Of a stretch of 44,915 nt of DNA, positions 4,441-13,495 are shown piece by piece (within the stretch, counting starts at the first letter, position 1; each line of letters opens with the position of its first letter). The notes under the pieces are model-generated. The model ran no database searches and had not been told where the DNA came from. It saw only the letters and a list, made by a program, of their open reading frames with translations. Source of the DNA: Pseudomonadota bacterium. GTDB taxonomy: Bacteria; Pseudomonadota; Gammaproteobacteria; Pseudomonadales; Moraxellaceae. The stretch is taken from contig JAJZHP010000006.1 in assembly GCA_021804355.1 (NCBI GenBank), forward strand, positions 1 through 44,915, given 5' to 3'. The translations under genes and the position numbers were made by a program.

Positions 4441-4555
4441 ATTAAATGAGAAACTTAGGTTCGATTTGTTAATGCGACAGAGCCACAGTGCATTTGAAAA
4501 CGACATCGCCGCCAGTCTGGAACAATACGGCATTCGCAACGTTCGGAGTTGTAAA

Positions 4556-6274
4556 ATGAAGCAACATGCATTGTTGGATACCTTGGAGCGATTGCGCAGC
4601 TTGCCGCGCGAGGTGGCTACGGTCGAGTTCAAATTAAGTCTTGATAAGGCCGAGGATATTGGGCAGTACATTTCGGCACTGGCTAATTCGGCGGTTCTGG
4701 AGGGGCATGATCGCGCATGGTTGGTATGGGGCGTGGAAGATGGCACGCACGTTGTGCAGGGTACGCAGTTTGATCCATTTGCTCGTAAAGAGGGCAAACA
4801 GTCGCTCATCATGTGGTTGCAGCAGATGACATCACCCCGCGCTGACTTCACTTTTCATGGCTGTGATCACCCTCAAGGCAAGGTTGTTATACTGGAGATT
4901 CATCCGGCACGCAGTGGGCCGATTGCATTTCAGAATCAACGTTACGTGCGCATTGATAGTCACAAAACCAAACTTTCCGAACATCCCGACAAAGAATCTC
5001 GTCTGTGGGCGATGTTAGGGCAGAAGGATGATTGGGCAGGTGAAGTGGTATCCAGTGCGACGCTGGATGATCTTGATCCGGAAGCTATTGAGATCGCCCG
5101 CAAGCGTTTCACTGAATATCTGATCAAGAGTGAGGTCGATGCCGGTCGCTATGACCAGATTCGTGTTGATGCTGCGGGATGGGATGTACCGACGCTGCTA
5201 AACAAGGCACGTATCACCAAGCAGGGGAAGGTCACTCGCTCGGCGCTGTTGCTACTCGGCAAGGATGAATCCTCTCATTTTCTATCTCCGGTGGATGCCA
5301 AGATCAGTTGGATTTTGCGGGATGCCCAAAACCGCACTAAAACTTCGCAGCACTTTGGCATTCCCTTGCTGCTTTCCACAGACAAGGTTTATGGTCGCAT
5401 TCGTAATGTTACCGTTGAACATATGCCCGATGGCACGTTGTTTCCGACCGCCATTCAAAGCTATGATGCTTGGGTGATGCGTGAGGCCATGCACAACTGC
5501 ATAGCTCACCAGGATTACCGGATGGGTGGCAAGATCAATGTGGTGGAGCACCCGGATCGATTGGTATTCAGTAATCTGGGGCAATTCATTCCCCCCAGTG
5601 TGGAGTGGATGCTGGAGCAGCAGTCTCCACCTGAGCATTACCGCAACCAGTGGCTGATTGATGGAATGATACGCCTGCGCATGATCGATCAGGTCGGCAG
5701 CGGGATTCGGCGCATGTTTGAAACACAGCGTGAGCGTTTCTTCCCCTTGCCCGACTATACGTTTGATGCAAATGAACAGGGCTACCCACGAGTTGAGGTC
5801 ACTATTAGCGGGAAAGTGCTTGACGTGAAGTACACGCAAATATTGATGAAGCGCAGCGATCTGGAGTTGCGCGAAGTTTTGCTGCTTGACCGTGTGCAGA
5901 AGCGTCATAGTTTGTCGGCGGAAGCGGTTAAAGAGTTGAAATTCCTGAAGCTCATCGAGGGGCGTTCGCCTAATTATTTTATCTCGTCTAAAGTGGCAGA
6001 TTGGACGGGACAGAAGGCCCGTTATATCCATAATCGCGGACTGGATGAGGGCTACTACCGAAAGTTGGTGACGGACTACCTGCAGAAATACGGGCAGGCT
6101 ACTCGCAAGGATATTGACGATTTGTTGTTGTCGAAAATGCCAGAAATTCTTGAGCCTGAACAAAAGGCTCACAAGGTGCGCAATCTACTGCAGGCCATGC
6201 GAAGGGACGGGCTGATTTATCGTGAAGGTCCCAAGACTTCCGCTGTGTGGCGAATGGGCTCGGAAGATGTTTAG
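4556..6274 (+). CDS. AlbA_2/Schlafen-domain ATP-binding protein
   Basis: A 572-residue protein of the kind often annotated as RecG-like or putative transcriptional regulator. The amino domain (about 1-150) is AlbA_2/Schlafen type, with EFK at 24-26 and a GVEDGTHVVQG core. The middle (about 290-420) is a GHKL-like ATPase domain (HATPase_c_4), with the N-box REAMHNCIAHQDY and a GSGIRRM segment. The end is winged-helix-like. I start it at ATG 4556 because GGAGTT lies 6 bases upstream and the family normally begins this way; TTG 4466 and ATG 4472 would add about 30 residues. Members of this family are common in defence islands and on mobile elements, but their biochemical role is poorly defined. 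Location beside mrr supports a defence or element-maintenance role by inference. Confidence 0.88.
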   Translation: MKQHALLDTLERLRSLPREVATVEFKLSLDKAEDIGQYISALANSAVLEGHDRAWLVWGVEDGTHVVQGTQFDPFARKEGKQSLIMWLQQMTSPRADFTFHGCDHPQGKVVILEIHPARSGPIAFQNQRYVRIDSHKTKLSEHPDKESRLWAMLGQKDDWAGEVVSSATLDDLDPEAIEIARKRFTEYLIKSEVDAGRYDQIRVDAAGWDVPTLLNKARITKQGKVTRSALLLLGKDESSHFLSPVDAKISWILRDAQNRTKTSQHFGIPLLLSTDKVYGRIRNVTVEHMPDGTLFPTAIQSYDAWVMREAMHNCIAHQDYRMGGKINVVEHPDRLVFSNLGQFIPPSVEWMLEQQSPPEHYRNQWLIDGMIRLRMIDQVGSGIRRMFETQRERFFPLPDYTFDANEQGYPRVEVTISGKVLDVKYTQILMKRSDLELREVLLLDRVQKRHSLSAEAVKELKFLKLIEGRSPNYFISSKVADWTGQKARYIHNRGLDEGYYRKLVTDYLQKYGQATRKDIDDLLLSKMPEILEPEQKAHKVRNLLQAMRRDGLIYREGPKTSAVWRMGSEDV

Positions 6275-6297: not shown

Positions 6298-6430
6298 ATT
6301 AGCAAAGGAAATTTGCCTAAGTTGTTGATCTATATGTTTTCTTTTTTTATCTGCGCGGTGTATTAGAAATGAAATTACTATGAAGCTCCGGTTGCGGTAG
6401 GAATGGCAGTTACCTGCCACCCCCCGCACA

Positions 6431-6463
6431 GATCCGTACATGCAGAACTACTGCATACGGCTC
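6431..6463 (-). ncRNA. Group II intron domain V
   Basis: Read on the minus strand, this begins GAGCCGTATGCAG and closes CTGCATGTACGGATC, the shape of domain V with the catalytic AGC near the 5' strand. Two features are unusual. The cap is TAGTT rather than a GNRA tetraloop, and the base opposite the triad G is A where the usual sequence gives U. Domain VI follows immediately (GGCAG-GTAA-CTGCC core). Confidence 0.75.
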
Positions 6464-6468
6464 CTGCC

Positions 6469-8098
6469 TCAGGTCATCACGTGAAGTCGTTCCGAGGGTA
6501 GTGGATGCACTACGCTACACGGTGGAAAGTATTTCTTTGTTAGTCGGTTGAATCGTGGCCACTGGAGCCGATGTCGCTGACTCCGGCGCATCAGAGCATG
6601 TCGCCATACCCGTCCAACCTCACTCAGAAACCCTGCCAGCCTGTGCATATTACGCGGCACTGCATAGTAATTCAGATAACCTTGCAGCACCCGTCTCAAC
6701 CATGCACCCACTACAGGTATGGGTTCATGGCGTCGTTTCATGAGCGTGACACGTAATGCCGCCAGCGTTGCTCGCATGCGTTTCTTGATGGTCAATCTCA
6801 CCACCATGAAACCTCTCCGGCTCGTACCACAACAATGTGTGAATCCCAGAAAGTCGAATGTCTCCGGCTTCTTCTGCCCGCGTTCCTGACACTGCCTGGC
6901 CGCATAGCGTCCAAATCTAATCAGGCGGGTTTTGTCCGGATGCAATTGCAGTCCAAATTTGGCCATCCGCATCTGCAGGGCGGCCAGAAATTGCTGCGCT
7001 TCCCATTCATACTGGAAACCCATCACACTGTCATCCGCATAGCGAACCAGGATGACATCGCCTCGTGCATTTCGTTTACGCCACTGATGTGCCCACAGAT
7101 CAAGTGCATAGTGCAGGTAGATGTTCGCCAATAAGGGCGAAATGACAGCCCCCTGAGGCGTGCCTCGGGTTGATGCAATTCGATACCCATTCTCAACAAC
7201 ACCCGCCTGCAACCATTTCCTGATCAGTCGTATCAAGCGCCGATCGGCTATCCGGTGCTCCAGAAAACGCAACATCCACGCGTGATCAATTTCATCAAAG
7301 AATGCGCGAATGTCAGCATCCAGAATCCAGTTTACCTTCCGGATATTGATACCTACCGTCAGGGCGTCCAACGCATCATGTTGACCCTTACCTTGCCGGA
7401 ACCCATACGAGAAACCCAGAAAGTCCTGCTCATAAATAGCATTCAGTACCATAACCACGGCCTGCTGGACTACTTTGTCCTCCAGTGCGGCAATGCCCAA
7501 AGGGCGCATTCTGCCATCAGCTTTTGGAATGAAGACACGCCGTGACGGCTGTGCACGATATGCTCCGCTTTGAATCTCACGGTGTAGTTCGTTCACGCGC
7601 CGATACAGTATTTCTTCATATTCTGCCATCAACACCTGCCGCTGCCTGCTTGCGAAGGGCGTAGAAACTCTCCACAAGCAACGACGGCGTCAGATGGTGA
7701 AGTAGCGAACTAAAACGCAGCTTCGGATTTCGCTACGCTGCTTCACGTATACGTCCAAGACCCAACGACGCACCTTGTACCCAGCTCTGCGTCCGGGGTG
7801 CGGGAATCCTGCCCGTATTCCCCTCGGCTACGCCCCTTCCCTCCGTCATCTCCGCAGGAATCCGTCCTTTGTTCAATGATTTCTCCGGTACTATGGGCAT
7901 ATCCGACTTCTCATCGGCGTGAACGATTGGATTACGGTCCTTGACCTTGCCAAACCCCGTCCGCCAGTGCCTCTGCGGACACCGATGAGATCTCGCTGCT
8001 TCCGTGTAGTAGACTTCTTTGCATGCACAGGGTCTCCGACTGCGTGGAATCAGCACATGGCTTGCGATTAGCGTCATGTGCTGTGTAGCCTTCCGCAT
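6469..8098 (-). pseudogene. ltrA-like: Group II intron reverse transcriptase/maturase, broken
   Basis: The intron-encoded protein. The carboxy-terminal frame (6469-7677, about 400 codons) has the reverse transcriptase core, including RGTPQGAVISPLLANIY and RYADDS, and a group II maturase segment near GAWLRRVLQGYLNYYAVP. There is no endonuclease domain. The amino part is in another frame from about 8098 (DEKSDMPIVPEKSLNKG, TQSWVQGASLGLGRIREAA). It is interrupted by an in-frame TAG at 7733-7735, continues LLHHLTPSLLVESFYALR and GVDG, and then shifts frame near 7629, where the expected MTW-type residues are missing. The shift fits a small deletion whose size is not a multiple of three. A functional full-length protein should not be made. 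The true start is uncertain; 8098 is the outer limit. Confidence 0.85.
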
Positions 8099-8286
8099 AC
8101 CTTAACAGCGTCGGCATCCCAGATTCTTGATTTCGCAGCTCAATGGCTGGCCTGCAAATTTCCCCTGTCAACGCTTCGGTATGAATCTCACGACTCATAC
8201 CGCATGACTCGGGGTCAGAGTGATTCGCCATTTCTTCTCCGTGTCGAACTTTCATCGACTATCTACTACCGGCTTTGCAGCCGCAC

Positions 8287-8729: not shown

Positions 8730-8820
8730 TGGCGGTGAGGGAGGGATTCGAACCCTCGACACCCTTTTGAGGTGTACTCCCTTAGCAGGGGAGCGCCTTC
8801 GGCCTCTCGGCCACCTCACC
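8730..8820 (-). tRNA. tRNA-Ser (anticodon GCT)
   Basis: A 91-nt class II tRNA on the minus strand with acceptor GGTGAGG/CCTCACC, encoded CCA, a long variable arm, and anticodon loop CTGCTAA (GCT) within CTCCC/GGGAG. It reads AGC/AGU serine codons. It is probably co-transcribed with tRNA-Arg 91 bp downstream. Confidence 0.97.
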
Positions 8821-8834
8821 TCGCAGAGCGCGAG

Positions 8835-8863
8835 ATAATACCACGTTCAGTATTTCTGAAAAG
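8835..8863 (-). promoter_or_regulatory. Possible tRNA-Ser promoter
   Basis: On the minus strand a TATTAT -10 lies 14 bp before the tRNA, with a poor -35 (CTTTTC) 17 bp upstream. The GC-rich discriminator (CTCGCGCT) is typical of stable-RNA promoters under stringent control. Confidence 0.4.
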
Positions 8864-8905
8864 AGGTAGATAGAAATTTTCCTGAGATTATCGACAAATC
8901 CATCA

Positions 8906-8923
8906 TGTAAGCATTTGCTTACA
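8906..8923 (+). promoter_or_regulatory. GacA-box upstream activating sequence
   Basis: TGTAAGCATTTGCTTACA fits the GacA upstream activating sequence consensus TGTAAG-N6-CTTACA at every fixed position, and the dyad extends to 26 bp (8902-8927). In Pseudomonas this element drives rsmX, rsmY and rsmZ. Here it stands about 79-96 bp before the predicted start of the small RNA. Confidence 0.8.
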
Positions 8924-8989
8924 TGATCACACGAAAATAACTGACAGAGCTTGGGTGAGTTTACGCATGCTTTACCTGCAACAACATCG

Positions 8990-8995
8990 CATAAT
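8990..8995 (+). promoter_or_regulatory. -10 element of the small-RNA promoter
   Basis: CATAAT differs from TATAAT in one base and sits 7 bp before the inferred start near 9002. No good -35 is visible, which suits a promoter that depends on an activator bound at 8906-8923. Confidence 0.6.
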
Positions 8996-9001
8996 AAGTT
9001 C

Positions 9002-9115
9002 ACAGGACGGGCATGAAGCCACGAGGCACAGGGGCACATGGAATGTGTAGTGTCGGTCCTTCATGGATGAAGATAGGGAGCAGCGGCGCTAGGCAGGAGC
9101 CACGCCGCTTTTTTT
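9002..9115 (+). ncRNA. Candidate CsrA-sequestering small RNA (RsmX/Y/Z type)
   Basis: A predicted transcript of about 114 nt between csrA and tRNA-Ser, convergent with csrA. It has five GGA motifs, at 9005, 9040, 9065, 9077 and 9096. Three are displayed in hairpin loops, the preferred form for CsrA/RsmA binding: CACAT-GGA-ATGTG (9035-9047), CTTCA-TGGA-TGAAG (9059-9072) and GGC-AGGA-GCC (9092-9101) at the top of the terminator. A GacA box (8906-8923) and a CATAAT -10 lie upstream, and a strong terminator ends it. What is known: such RNAs titrate CsrA under GacS/GacA control. What is inferred: that this one does so here. No good protein-coding frame explains the segment. Confidence 0.82.
9082..9115 (+). 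terminator. Intrinsic terminator of the small RNA
   Basis: AGCGGCG (9082-9088) pairs with CGCCGCT (9103-9109), 7 bp, followed by a run of T to 9115. The hairpin apex carries the last GGA motif. Confidence 0.88.
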
Positions 9116-9245
9116 ATGCCCGTTTTATACCCGCGTTTTAAATGGGATGTGTCCCTGCTAAAAACAATAAAACCACCCAGAAGCCACCCAGCATTCTCAG
9201 AGGAGGTATGGATTCGATCGGGATCGATGCTTTATTGATAATGGC

Positions 9246-9443
9246 TTAGTCTACGATGTCCTGATGCTCAGCGGAGCCCTTTTCTCGCTGGATGCGCTGG
9301 TAGATCTCTTCGCGATGCACAGCAACATCCTTGGGGGCATTCACGCCAATGCGTACCTGATTACCCTTCACACCTAGGACCGTAACCGTGACTTCATCCC
9401 CCACCATCAGAGTCTCTCCAACTCTGCGGGTCAAAATAAGCAT
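9246..9443 (-). CDS. csrA: Carbon storage regulator CsrA/RsmA
   Basis: A 65-residue RNA-binding protein, [20 protein letters not shown] onward, with the conserved [22 protein letters not shown] core. CsrA dimers bind GGA motifs in mRNA leaders and repress or activate translation; small RNAs with many GGA motifs titrate it. I start it at ATG 9443 because GAGGAG stands 6 bases upstream and the family begins MLIL; a longer frame to 9485 is not supported. The leader has three GGA motifs (complements at 9451, 9457 and 9475), one inside the ribosome-binding site, which suggests autoregulation. It lies downstream of lysC and alaS on the same strand, and a candidate antagonist RNA is encoded convergently just beyond its 3' end. 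Confidence 0.98.
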
Positions 9444-9577: not shown

Positions 9578-10813
9578 TTATTCAACAGTTGCAGGTGCGT
9601 CCAGATTAAATTCCGTATGCAAAGCACGCACGGCCAGTTCCATATACTTCTCTTGCAAGACCACTGAAATCTTGATCTCTGATGTGGAGATCATCTGAAT
9701 ATTGATATTTTCTCGCGCTAACGTGGCAAACATCTGACTAGCCACCCCTGCATGCGAACGCATACCCACGCCGACCAGCGACACCTTGGCAATACGATCA
9801 TCACCGCTGACCTCACGTGCTCCGATCTCTTTAGCCACGGATTCCAGAATACTCATCACCTTACGATAGTCATTACGATGCACCGTGAAGGTAAAGTCCG
9901 TGGTGTTATCAGCAGCCACATTCTGCACAATCATATCTATTTCAACATTAGCTTCACCCACCGGCCCCAGGATACGGTACGCAATGCCTGGAATATCCGG
10001 CACACCACGCACGGTCAGTTTGGCTTCATCACGATTAAATGCAATCCCAGAAATGACGGGTTGTTCCATAGTATCCTCGGCATCAACAGTAATCAGGGTT
10101 CCCTCGCCCCCTTCCTTAAAACTAGACAGCACACGCAAGGGAACATTGTATTTGCCCGCAAACTCCACAGAGCGAATCTGCAAGACCTTAGAGCCCAGGC
10201 TGGCCATCTCCAGCATTTCTTCAAACGTAATGCGATCTAACCGCCTGGCTTCAGGCACCACACGCGGATCTGTGGTATAAACACCATCCACATCCGTATA
10301 GATCTGACATTCATCAGCCTTTAAAGCAGCAGCCAGGGCCACACCCGTCGTATCAGAGCCGCCACGCCCCAGGGTGGTAACATTACCTTCCACATCCACG
10401 CCCTGAAAACCAGCCACCACAACGACACGCCCAGCCGCCAGATCAGCGCGCATACGGGCATCATCAATCTGTTCTATACGGGCCTTGGTATAGGAGTGAT
10501 CCGTCGTGATCGCCACCTGGCCACCGGTATAGGATCGTGCCGGTACGCCTATGGATTGCAAAGCCATGGCCAGCAAGGCAATCGTCACCTGTTCCCCTGT
10601 ACATACCATCTGGTCCAGTTCCCTGGGATCAGGGTCGGACGTAATAGCCTGAGCTAAGGCTATCAGACGATTGGTCTCACCGCTCATCGCTGAAACCACC
10701 ACGACCAGATCATGACCCTGTTCACGCCAGCGTTTTACACGCTCCGCCACTGCCAGAATGCGTTCCGGCGTTCCCACCGAAGTACCACCGTATTTTTGAA
10801 CGATCAATGCCAT
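9578..10813 (-). CDS. lysC: Aspartate kinase
   Basis: A 411-residue aspartokinase that phosphorylates aspartate, the first step toward lysine, threonine, methionine and diaminopimelate. The catalytic domain begins ALIVQKYGGTSV, has the VVVVSAMSGETNRL segment, and includes FQGVDVEGNVTTLGRGGSDT. Two ACT regulatory domains fill the last 150 residues (KLTVRGVPDIPGIAYRILG; KVSLVGVGMRSHAGVASQMF), so feedback by lysine and/or threonine is likely. Size and sequence match the Pseudomonas-type single-function enzyme, not the ThrA/MetL fusions. It lies 48 bp after alaS and ahead of csrA. An in-frame ATG at 10069 with its own GAGG site may yield a separate regulatory subunit. Confidence 0.97.
   Translation of the reverse strand: MALIVQKYGGTSVGTPERILAVAERVKRWREQGHDLVVVVSAMSGETNRLIALAQAITSDPDPRELDQMVCTGEQVTIALLAMALQSIGVPARSYTGGQVAITTDHSYTKARIEQIDDARMRADLAAGRVVVVAGFQGVDVEGNVTTLGRGGSDTTGVALAAALKADECQIYTDVDGVYTTDPRVVPEARRLDRITFEEMLEMASLGSKVLQIRSVEFAGKYNVPLRVLSSFKEGGEGTLITVDAEDTMEQPVISGIAFNRDEAKLTVRGVPDIPGIAYRILGPVGEANVEIDMIVQNVAADNTTDFTFTVHRNDYRKVMSILESVAKEIGAREVSGDDRIAKVSLVGVGMRSHAGVASQMFATLARENINIQMISTSEIKISVVLQEKYMELAVRALHTEFNLDAPATVE
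10069..10078 (-). promoter_or_regulatory. Internal ribosome-binding site in lysC
   Basis: On the minus strand GAGG (10078-10075) precedes an in-frame ATG (10069-10067) by 5 bases. Translation from here gives MEQPVISGIAFNRDEAKL, almost exactly the start of the ACT half. Some bacterial aspartokinases (Bacillus, Corynebacterium) are alpha2-beta2, with beta made from such a start. Confidence 0.5.
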
Positions 10814-10861: not shown

Positions 10862-13495
10862 TTATTTATTCAATCGCGCTTTGCAATAAGCTTCCACCGA
10901 GGCAAGCACCTCAGGCAGTGCCTGAATATCTTGCCCACCGCCTTGCGCCATATCCGGACGGCCACCGCCCTTACCACCTAGTTTTGTCGCCAGTTCACTG
11001 ACCAAATCACCAGCTCGTAATAGGCCATGTAAATCCTTGCTAACTCCCACCAACAAGCTGATCTGCTGCTCATGCACCGTAGCCAATACGACCACCGCTG
11101 AGCCCAGCCGGTCTTTGAGATGGTCATAGGTCTCACGCAAAGTTTTAGCGTTACTATCCGGCAAGTTGACTACCAGCAATTTTACTTCACCCAAGGATTT
11201 GGCTTGTTGCACCAGATCAAGCGTAGCGGCACGACTCAACGATTGTTGTGCACGCTCTAGATTTTTTTCCAAGTCCCGTGTCCGCTCAAGCAATTGCTTC
11301 ATACGTTCATCGATACGATGACGCGGTACCTTCAACTCACGAGATAGTGAATTGAGTTGATCCTCTGCGGCTTGTGCTGCATCAACCGCCAGTAATCCAC
11401 ATACTGCCTCGATACGTCTAACGCCGGCGGCCACGCCAGATTCTGAGGTGATCCGGAAGTAGCCGATATCACCCGTACGACGGACATGCGTACCGCCACA
11501 TAGCTCCTTGGAAAAACCGTTTTCCCCCATACTCAGCACACGAACCTCATCACCATATTTTTCGCCAAATAAGGCCATCGCTCCATGAGCCTTAGCCTCG
11601 CCAGGTGTCATGAGTTCAGTACACACTTCGGTATTGGCAATAATTTCCTGATTAACACGTCGAGCTACTGCCACCAACTCTTCAGGCGTCAAAGGTTGGG
11701 GATGAGAAATATCAAAACGCAGGTAATCACCAGCCACCAGGGAGCCCTGTTGCGTGATATGAGGCCCCAGTAATTGCCGCAACGCAGCATGCAGAAGGTG
11801 TGTCGCGGAATGGTGGACTCGCAGACGCCGCCGCAAAGCATGGTCAATACGAGCCTGCAAAGCATCCCCCACACACAAACGCCCCTCCGTCAAACGACCA
11901 TGGTGTATATGCAGCTGACCTTGCTTGGTCGTATCTGACACTTCAAAATGCACGCCTGTGGCTTCGAGGACTCCGCAATCACCATTCTGTCCACCCGAGC
12001 GAGCATAAAACGGCGTGATATCCAACAACACCAAGGCTTCATCACCCGCCTGCAAGACATCAACGACCTCTCCCTGGCGGTAGATAGCCACAACGCGAAC
12101 CGAGTCCTCGTCATGATCATAGCCCGTAAAGCTGGTCTCGCCTTCCTGTCGAATGAGGCTATTGTAGTCAACTGAAAAATTCGCATGGGCACGCGAACGC
12201 AAACGCTGTTCCTGCAAGGCCACCTCAAAGCCCTCCATGTCCAGCGTCAAACCACGCTCTCTGGCGACATCAGCCGTCAGGTCTGGAGGAAAACCATAAG
12301 TGTCCGCTAGGGTAAACACCACGCTTCCTGGAATCAGTGTTCCTGACAGCCCTGCGATCGACTGCTCCATAACCTTGAGCCCGTTCTCCAGGGTATGGGC
12401 AAACTGTTCTTCTTCCGCCTGCAAGGCACGGATGATATCGGCCTGGCGATTCTGTAACTCAGGATAGGCGCCGCCCATGATCTCCACCAGGGCGGGAACC
12501 AGAGCATGAAAAAATGGTTGACGCGCACCGAGCTTATTACCATGACGGCAAGCTCGGCGAATAATGCGTCTTAACACATACCCACGGCCTTCATTAGAAG
12601 GCAATATGCCATCAGCCACCAGGAAAGCACAGGAGCGAATATGATCGGCGATAACACGCAGCGATGCCTGCCCTTCATCCATAATACCGAGCTGTGCTGC
12701 GGTGGCCGCACGCAAATGCAAGAATAAATCGGTATCGTAATTGGAGTGCACACCCTGCAGAACTGCGGTTATACGCTCCAGCCCCATACCTGTATCCACT
12801 GAAGGCGCAGGCAGAGGATGCAAGACACCATCCGCCGTGCGGTTAAACTGCATGAATACGTTGTTCCATATTTCAATATATCGATCACCGTCTTCATCAG
12901 GCGAGCCCGGAGGTCCTCCCGCCACTTCAGGACCATGATCATAAAAAATCTCGGTACAGGGACCACAAGGCCCGGTGTCTCCCATCGCCCAGAAATTATC
13001 CGATGCGTAAGGAGCTCCTTTATTGTCGCCAATGCGCACGATACGAGCAGCAGGGATACCTATCTCTTGCTCCCAAATACGATAGGCCTCATCATCCGTG
13101 GCATACACCGTCACCCATAATTTCTCCGGGGGCAAGGCCAACCAAGCCTGCCCAGTCAGAAAGTTCCAGGCAAAGTGTATGGCATCACGCTTGAAATAAT
13201 CCCCAAAGCTGAAATTACCCAACATCTCAAAGAACGTATGATGCCGTGCTGTATAACCAACATTATCCAGGTCGTTATGTTTGCCCCCGGCACGCACACA
13301 CTTTTGCGAAGAGACCGCACGATGGTAAGACCGTTTCTCCAGTCCCAAAAAACAATCCTTGAACTGATTCATCCCTGCATTGGTAAACAGCAGCGTAGGA
13401 TCATCAGCTGGCACCAGCGAACTCGAAGCAACACGCGTATGCCCCTGACTTGCAAAATAATTCAGGAAAGCCTCACGGACCTGCGCGCTCTTCAT
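10862..13495 (-). CDS. alaS: Alanyl-tRNA synthetase
   Basis: An 877-residue class II synthetase that charges tRNA-Ala. Order: catalytic core ([18 protein letters not shown] at the start, [32 protein letters not shown]), tRNA-recognition region, editing domain with the zinc ligands HSATHLLH and CGGTH, and the C-Ala domain with the glycine-rich [15 protein letters not shown] motif near the end. Length is normal (E. coli 876). The start at 13495 has a purine-rich AGGGG-type site. It is first of the alaS-lysC-csrA series on the minus strand. A TATACT or TATTAT -10 can be picked out in the 110 bp upstream, but I cannot choose between them. Confidence 0.98.

Follow-up and report, generated by a model that had tools for sequence, protein, structure and literature searches.

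The intergenic segment between tRNA-Ser(GCT) and csrA in the Moraxellaceae genome analysed here very probably encodes, as judged from its sequence and its counterparts in relatives, a GacA-activated, CsrA-sequestering small RNA of the Csr/Rsm type, which lies tail-to-tail with csrA itself (Table 1; the window denotes the whole stretch of 44,915 nucleotides that was analysed). The assignment draws on the sequence elements of the gene, on their conservation, on the presence of both GacA and CsrA genes in the genome and on the finding of comparable RNAs next to csrA in other genera. The original prediction had placed a GacA-driven, CsrA-titrating RNA 130 bp from csrA and facing it. As a predicted function, this core is well supported by our comparison, and the two genes are indeed convergent, with 130 nt between the RNA and the csrA stop codon.

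Table 1 Features of the RNA gene and its surroundings, in window coordinates, and a second RNA of the same genome
Feature	Position	Strand	Basis or remark
Predicted CsrA-sequestering small RNA, ~115 nt, five GGA	9001-9115	+	Same-genus identity 115/115; GGA positions and accessibility
Perfect 26-bp dyad ATCATGTAAGCA-TT-TGCTTACATGAT	8902-8927	.	Holds the 18-bp GacA box; read directly
GacA box TGTAAGCATTTGCTTACA	8906-8923	.	Within the 26-bp dyad; read directly
-10 element CATAAT	8990-8995	+	Read directly
GGA hairpin GCACAU-GGA-AUGUGU	9034-9048	+	-4.7 kcal/mol, z -3.7
GGA hairpin CUUCA-UGGA-UGAAG	9059-9072	+	Weak alone: -2.3 kcal/mol, z -0.5
Intrinsic terminator GCGGCG..GGCAGGAGCC..CGCCGC + T7	9082-9115	+	GGA in inner 3-pair loop
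csrA	9246-9443	-	NCBIfam csrA NF002469, 118 bits vs cut-off 73; convergent with the RNA
lysC	9578-10813	-	Beyond csrA
877-aa ORF, presumably alaS	10862-13495	-	Beyond lysC
tRNA-Ser(GCT)	8733-8820	-	Rfam RF00005; anticodon by ARAGORN; points away from the RNA, with the GacA box in between
tRNA-Arg		-	Left of tRNA-Ser
Second Csr/Rsm-type RNA, own genome	G000:C102, L202:1498-1688	-	Via g3 counterpart; not beside csrA

The upstream region carries the perfect GacA box within an exact 26-bp dyad and the CATAAT element that had been described. A pattern scan of the whole 2.6-Mb genome found the exact pattern TGTAAGN6CTTACA at one site, which is this box. It is the perfect match that gives the box its weight, since sites with up to two mismatches are expected about once per window; one GacA-type site of that kind was found in the window against 1.18 expected by chance. 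A relaxed pattern was uninformative, with 19 sites in the genome versus 32 for a reversed control pattern. The exact pattern is present in 29 of 61 family genomes, with 1-4 copies in each, and many of these sites lie, by reading, upstream of GGA-rich stretches. Four g15 loci (L006, L008, L009 and L041) carry, by eye, a conserved stretch behind a perfect GacA box with TTTTGGGAGAGACTA near the terminator; this stretch is poor in GGA and may represent another type of RNA driven by GacA. Transcription of the window RNA would start at about 9001-9003. A promoter scan gave no plus-strand promoter-like pair at the RNA gene, where the -10 element alone is recognisable.

The RNA body contains five GGA motifs (at 9005, 9040, 9065, 9077 and 9096), in agreement with the five claimed earlier for a segment of about 114 nt. 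The count as such is unremarkable: when the RNA was shuffled 5000 times with its dinucleotides preserved, 18.6% of the products reached it. Their mean probabilities of being unpaired in the ensemble are 0.07, 0.99, 0.92, 0.13 and 1.0, respectively, so that three of the five (0.92-1.0) are exposed, as befits a class with several exposed GGA. The GGA at the 5' end (9005) pairs with UCC near 9057 in the whole-RNA fold, and the number of working sites may for this reason be about three. Hairpin loops closed by at least four pairs hold two GGA (9040 and 9065), and the motif at 9096 lies in a loop inside the terminator that is closed by 3 pairs only. The claim that three GGA sit in hairpin loops thus stands for the first two and extends to the third only if a 3-pair stem is accepted. 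The 9065 hairpin is single-stranded in the full-length minimum-energy fold; the fold of the whole RNA has a z of -2.0, with 7/200 shuffles equally good.

The anticipated intrinsic terminator was found as a GC stem followed by T7 ending at 9115, and the RNA is intergenic and non-coding with an intrinsic terminator at its end, as in other members of the class. A narrower terminator scan, limited to loops of 3-8, gave 0 sites in 8800-9300, probably because of the loop limit; a wider scan recovers the RNA terminator. The two strands of the window together contain 29 terminator-like sites, of which two have at least five GGA and at least two GGA hairpins within 150 nt, namely the window RNA and a site at 7716-7737 on the minus strand.

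Conservation was assessed in one same-genus genome, the only one available. The RNA body is identical there at 115/115 nt and the GacA box at 18/18, with 23/26 positions of the dyad and 89% of the box-to-minus-10 stretch retained. By comparison, third codon positions are identical at 43/66 (65%) in csrA and at 238/349 (68%) in the part of lysC compared, and the RNA-csrA spacer at 67/130 (~52%), with 44 of the 130 unaligned. The GacA box and the GGA loops, proposed as a conservation check, are therefore kept in one same-genus genome, and a like arrangement occurs in four more genera. This pattern bears on two alternatives to a non-coding RNA. A small protein-coding gene of 42 aa, for which the open frame 9013-9141 with AGGA just 5' of its ATG might speak, is a very improbable explanation of the conserved segment: the 115/115 identity includes third positions, against 65-68% in csrA and lysC, and the frame crosses the terminator into the diverged stretch, so that its C-terminus differs between the two genomes. 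That GGA motifs and a palindrome came together by chance in an unexpressed intergenic region is hardly credible; the GGA count and the expected number of imperfect boxes would allow it, but the box is perfect, the RNA is fully identical between diverged flanks and a like arrangement is present in four other genera.

The segment is thus best read as a regulatory RNA, and it belongs to none of the families that Rfam recognises. Over 9001-9115, no Csr/Rsm family was found at the gathering threshold and no match at E <= 10; the thresholds of PrrB_RsmZ (RF00166), RsmX, RsmY, CsrB (RF00018) and CsrC (RF00084) were not reached. The Rfam search for RsmX, RsmY, RsmZ and CsrB suggested by the original prediction is hence negative for the window RNA. 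Two of the three g5 RNAs at the equivalent position beside csrA gave sub-threshold scores (PrrB_RsmZ 24.1 bits, E 0.17; CsrC 18.5 bits, E 0.22), and GacA-box RNAs elsewhere in relatives scored 20-34 bits with CsrB or RsmZ, likewise below threshold. Both protein partners are encoded in the genome: in addition to CsrA, a GacA orthologue was identified (family NF007018, 306.7 bits vs cut-off 280). Furthermore, a second Csr/Rsm-type RNA was located in the same genome. It has a terminator, 7 GGA, each of which is largely unpaired across the ensemble, and an upstream site, TGTAAGCATTAGATTACA, with one mismatch to the GacA box; its PrrB_RsmZ score is 26.8 bits (E 0.006), below the curated 44. No match to it was found in the same-genus genome (86% complete) or in 1 of the 2 g3 genomes searched. 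The genome probably contains at least two CsrA-sequestering RNAs, the window RNA being one of them.

Our comparison across the family reveals that such an RNA recurs beside csrA. Of the 119 family genomes, 111 gave a csrA match, and the region beyond the gene was examined in 50 of those 111. At the same place as in the window, a convergent GGA-rich stretch with a terminator is present in 15/15 csrA-bearing loci of g1, the window genus (2 loci), g4 (4), g5 (3), g12 (1) and g13 (5; four additional g13 genomes had no csrA match). None of the 35 loci examined from eleven further genera in this family showed an RNA-like GGA-rich stretch beyond csrA; for four g6 and seven g8/g10 loci (L084-L090) among them, the verdict comes from counts and the automatic scan alone. 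The csrA pattern had no match in many loci (betaproteobacteria, most Pseudomonas and four g6); three of the Pseudomonas loci were re-read, the g6 loci were counted and the others were left out. The maximum per 150 nt was 5-12 GGA and 2-7 ANGGA in the positive loci versus 0-6 GGA and 0-3 ANGGA in the negative ones. The GGA ranges overlap at 5-6, and the two highest counts among the negatives come from a stretch with a 142-codon ORF and from a region around a tRNA. The automatic criterion caught 11 of the 15 positives, and L067, L070, L076 and L079 were accepted on reading, by which the RNA ends in relatives were also set. At this slot the RNAs measure 111-123 nt with 5-6 GGA in g13, 115 nt with 5 GGA in g1, 157-168 nt with 9-10 GGA in g5 and 243-317 nt with 13-17 GGA in g4 and g12; a GGA is found in the terminator loop of the g1, g4, g12 and g13 sequences. 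One g4 RNA gene (L082:1821-2137, minus strand) contains TTACGCATTGCATAACCGCGTAAG twice, which looks like the entry of a small repeat element.

Control by GacA appears well supported from the sequence in g1 and weaker in g13. A GacA-type dyad with 1-2 mismatches precedes the RNA in 2/3 g5, 1/1 g12 and 3/4 g4 loci; one of three g5 loci, one of four g4 loci and all five g13 loci showed no such dyad when up to 2 mismatches were allowed, and it is for this last result that g13 is ranked lower. The g13 loci show, by eye, only half-sites such as TTTCCTACAC, and in L069 of this genus a long inverted repeat, GTGTAGGAAATTGAC...GTCAATTTCCTACAC, occupies the expected place of the GacA box upstream of the RNA.

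The same loci help to decide whether the box in the window acts on the divergent tRNA-Ser(GCT) gene, either instead of or in addition to the RNA gene, which we consider improbable. The tRNA 5' end (8820) and the presumed RNA start are each ~90 bp away from the centre of the palindrome, and a minus-strand promoter-like pair lies at 8862-8835, against 0.8 expected in shuffles. However, three of the four g4 loci and the g12 locus have a GacA-type dyad upstream of the RNA and lack a tRNA within 700 nt beyond csrA, and tRNA-Ser occurs near csrA with neither RNA nor box in 2/3 g3 loci and in the 15 Pseudomonas loci read. In the window, within 8821-9002, GacA could in principle touch the tRNA-Ser(GCT) promoter. 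Beyond tRNA-Arg lies a group II intron (6391-8252, minus strand; Rfam D1-D4 at 8030-8252 and Intron_gpII at 6391-6465) with a reverse-transcriptase ORF at 6469-7677 (Pfam RVT_1), adjoined by the gene of a 602-aa protein (4466-6274, plus strand) that combines Schlafen/AlbA_2 with a RecG-C-like HATPase_c_4.

How the RNAs of the five genera are related was approached through promoter spacing, covariance and phylogeny. By hand count, the box and the -10 element are 66 nt apart in g1, 66-67 nt in two g5 loci and 43 nt in the g12 locus, and the equal spacing favours a shared origin of the g1 and the two g5 RNAs. By comparison, a covariance model built from the three g5 RNAs and run over 23 sources missed the window RNA, its same-genus copy and the second RNA, which favours independent origin or fast change; outside g5 it gave weak matches only (E 0.04-0.1, in L022, in L079 and, at a site other than the RNA, in L069). 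The case for a common ancestor with the neighbours' RNAs therefore comes from position and promoter only. Within g13 (n=5), one GGA-hairpin stem is GATC/GATC in its first form and varies to GACC/GGTC and AACC/GGTT. Across two helices, 80/80 cells pair, as in 2/500 shuffles, the covariation score is reached by 2/500, and 3 pairs are altered on both sides (17/500 shuffles), two of them in the GGA-hairpin stem. These compensatory changes lend modest support to selection at the RNA level, in a set of five sequences that align poorly beyond the first hairpin.

The distribution of the RNA in the LysC tree requires 5 changes on the best tree, with at least 2 forced by well-supported branches. The nearest genus by CsrA and LysC identity, g3, has an RNA at the csrA slot in 0/3 loci. 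The RNA may have been gained once and then lost in g2 and g3, and the LysC tree, which puts the window lineage on the Pseudomonas side, does not settle on one origin. In this tree, records titled Acinetobacter and Moraxellaceae cluster with family member G007, and two of three g15 loci look similar to those records beyond csrA by eye, in keeping with the family being Moraxellaceae; another Moraxellaceae-titled record (L135, on a long branch) lies on the Pseudomonas side as well. In Pseudomonas, for which the gene order csrA-tRNA-Ser-tRNA-Arg is given in the available part of a review (PMC7366521), 15 of 36 loci were read; no RNA was seen in them, and the 59-72 nt that separate tRNA-Ser from the csrA stop are too few to accommodate one. 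The RNA gene accordingly looks, from these sequences, like an insertion in one part of the family.

The constant orientation raises the question of whether the RNA, besides acting in trans, also acts on csrA through its position, by antisense read-through, colliding polymerases or a shared terminator. The tail-to-tail arrangement in 15/15 loci of five genera is compatible with such a circuit, and no csrA-side terminator was found within 330 nt in g1 (2/2) or g5 (3/3), so that read-through is possible in these two genera. At the g12 locus, in 3/4 g4 and in 4/5 g13 loci, the RNA terminator hairpin has a T-run on the csrA side as well and would therefore also end csrA transcripts; the fifth g13 locus (L071), scanned at shifted coordinates, has the same hairpin by sequence, and for g4 L081 the scan gave another hairpin. 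Yet a bidirectional terminator means insulation, not coupling, the linkage could be passive inheritance, and CsrA, a diffusible protein, acts in trans. We therefore regard an action in cis as unlikely. The suggestion that read-through of csrA yields antisense RNA and hard-wires feedback is not supported, the terminator looking bidirectional in three of the five genera. Read-through of csrA is possible in the window genus and unlikely as the common reason for the arrangement.

The window RNA is comparable in length to RsmX, RsmY and RsmZ of Pseudomonas, and the enterobacterial RNAs CsrB and CsrC are multi-GGA CsrA sponges. The g4 and g12 RNAs at the csrA slot approach CsrB and CsrC in size and GGA number, unlike the window RNA, which, with 115 nt and 5 GGA, has no match to these families and another location. 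An upstream GacA box, several GGA and an intrinsic terminator are named as typical Rsm RNA elements in the accessible part of PMC8523701; the window RNA shares them with RsmZ/PrrB, RsmX and RsmY, as far as these were covered there, and differs in lacking an Rfam match and in lying beside csrA. RsmA-regulating small RNAs of the same class were predicted in Acinetobacter ADP1 between ACIAD0018/0019 and ACIAD2750/2751, with csrA not named as a neighbour in the portion available (PMC5568370). In Marinomonas, according to the available text of PMC8523701, a GacA motif near csrA likewise occurs; it is located upstream of csrA1, which it is proposed to repress, and the two sRNAs are encoded at other loci. 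The nearest parallel to the placement is a protein gene: in the csrA-fliW linkage, a CsrA antagonist gene adjoins csrA (PMC13407953, PMC13029372, each available in part), but this antagonist is a protein, co-transcribed with csrA in Geobacter, whereas in the window it is an RNA and convergent. A Csr cassette, the RNA counterpart of this pairing, can be conceived, in which part of the family would keep a CsrA sponge convergent with csrA, the terminator being either shared or missing and regulator and antagonist being coupled both in cis and in trans, and in which the box may also act on tRNA-Ser(GCT); we regard this wider reading as unlikely. No report of a Csr/Rsm RNA beside csrA appeared among the matches listed for the open-access literature, a body that does not cover the predictions of Kulkarni 2006, and the accessible portions of PMC13029372, PMC12442408, PMC8523701, PMC5568370, PMC5876332, PMC4573307, PMC7366521 and PMC13407953 contain no mention of one adjoining csrA. 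The mechanism is ordinary; what is found is a predicted RNA of a known class outside the Rfam families, at an address common to five genera.

Sequestration of CsrA by GacA-driven RNAs is the known logic of this class. We infer that the window RNA is transcribed, bound by CsrA and active in its titration under GacA control, as follows. Phosphorylated GacA would bind the palindrome and activate the promoter with the -10 element at 8990-8995. The resulting transcript of ~115 nt would expose about three GGA (up to five), the open sites being those at 9040, 9065 and 9096, and these would take up CsrA and draw it off its mRNA targets, which would thereby be released. The transcript would stop at its own terminator, before reaching csrA. 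The same order, from GacA through the RNA to CsrA uptake, is described for the class in the part of PMC8523701 available.

Csr/Rsm RNAs, the window RNA included, change too fast for covariance models, and one csrA-side slot holds RNAs of 111 to 317 nt. A fixed address on the 3' side of csrA would allow Csr/Rsm RNAs to be found in genera beyond the reach of Rfam. Should dose or timing depend on the linkage, one could test directly whether sponge RNAs and their targets benefit from lying side by side.
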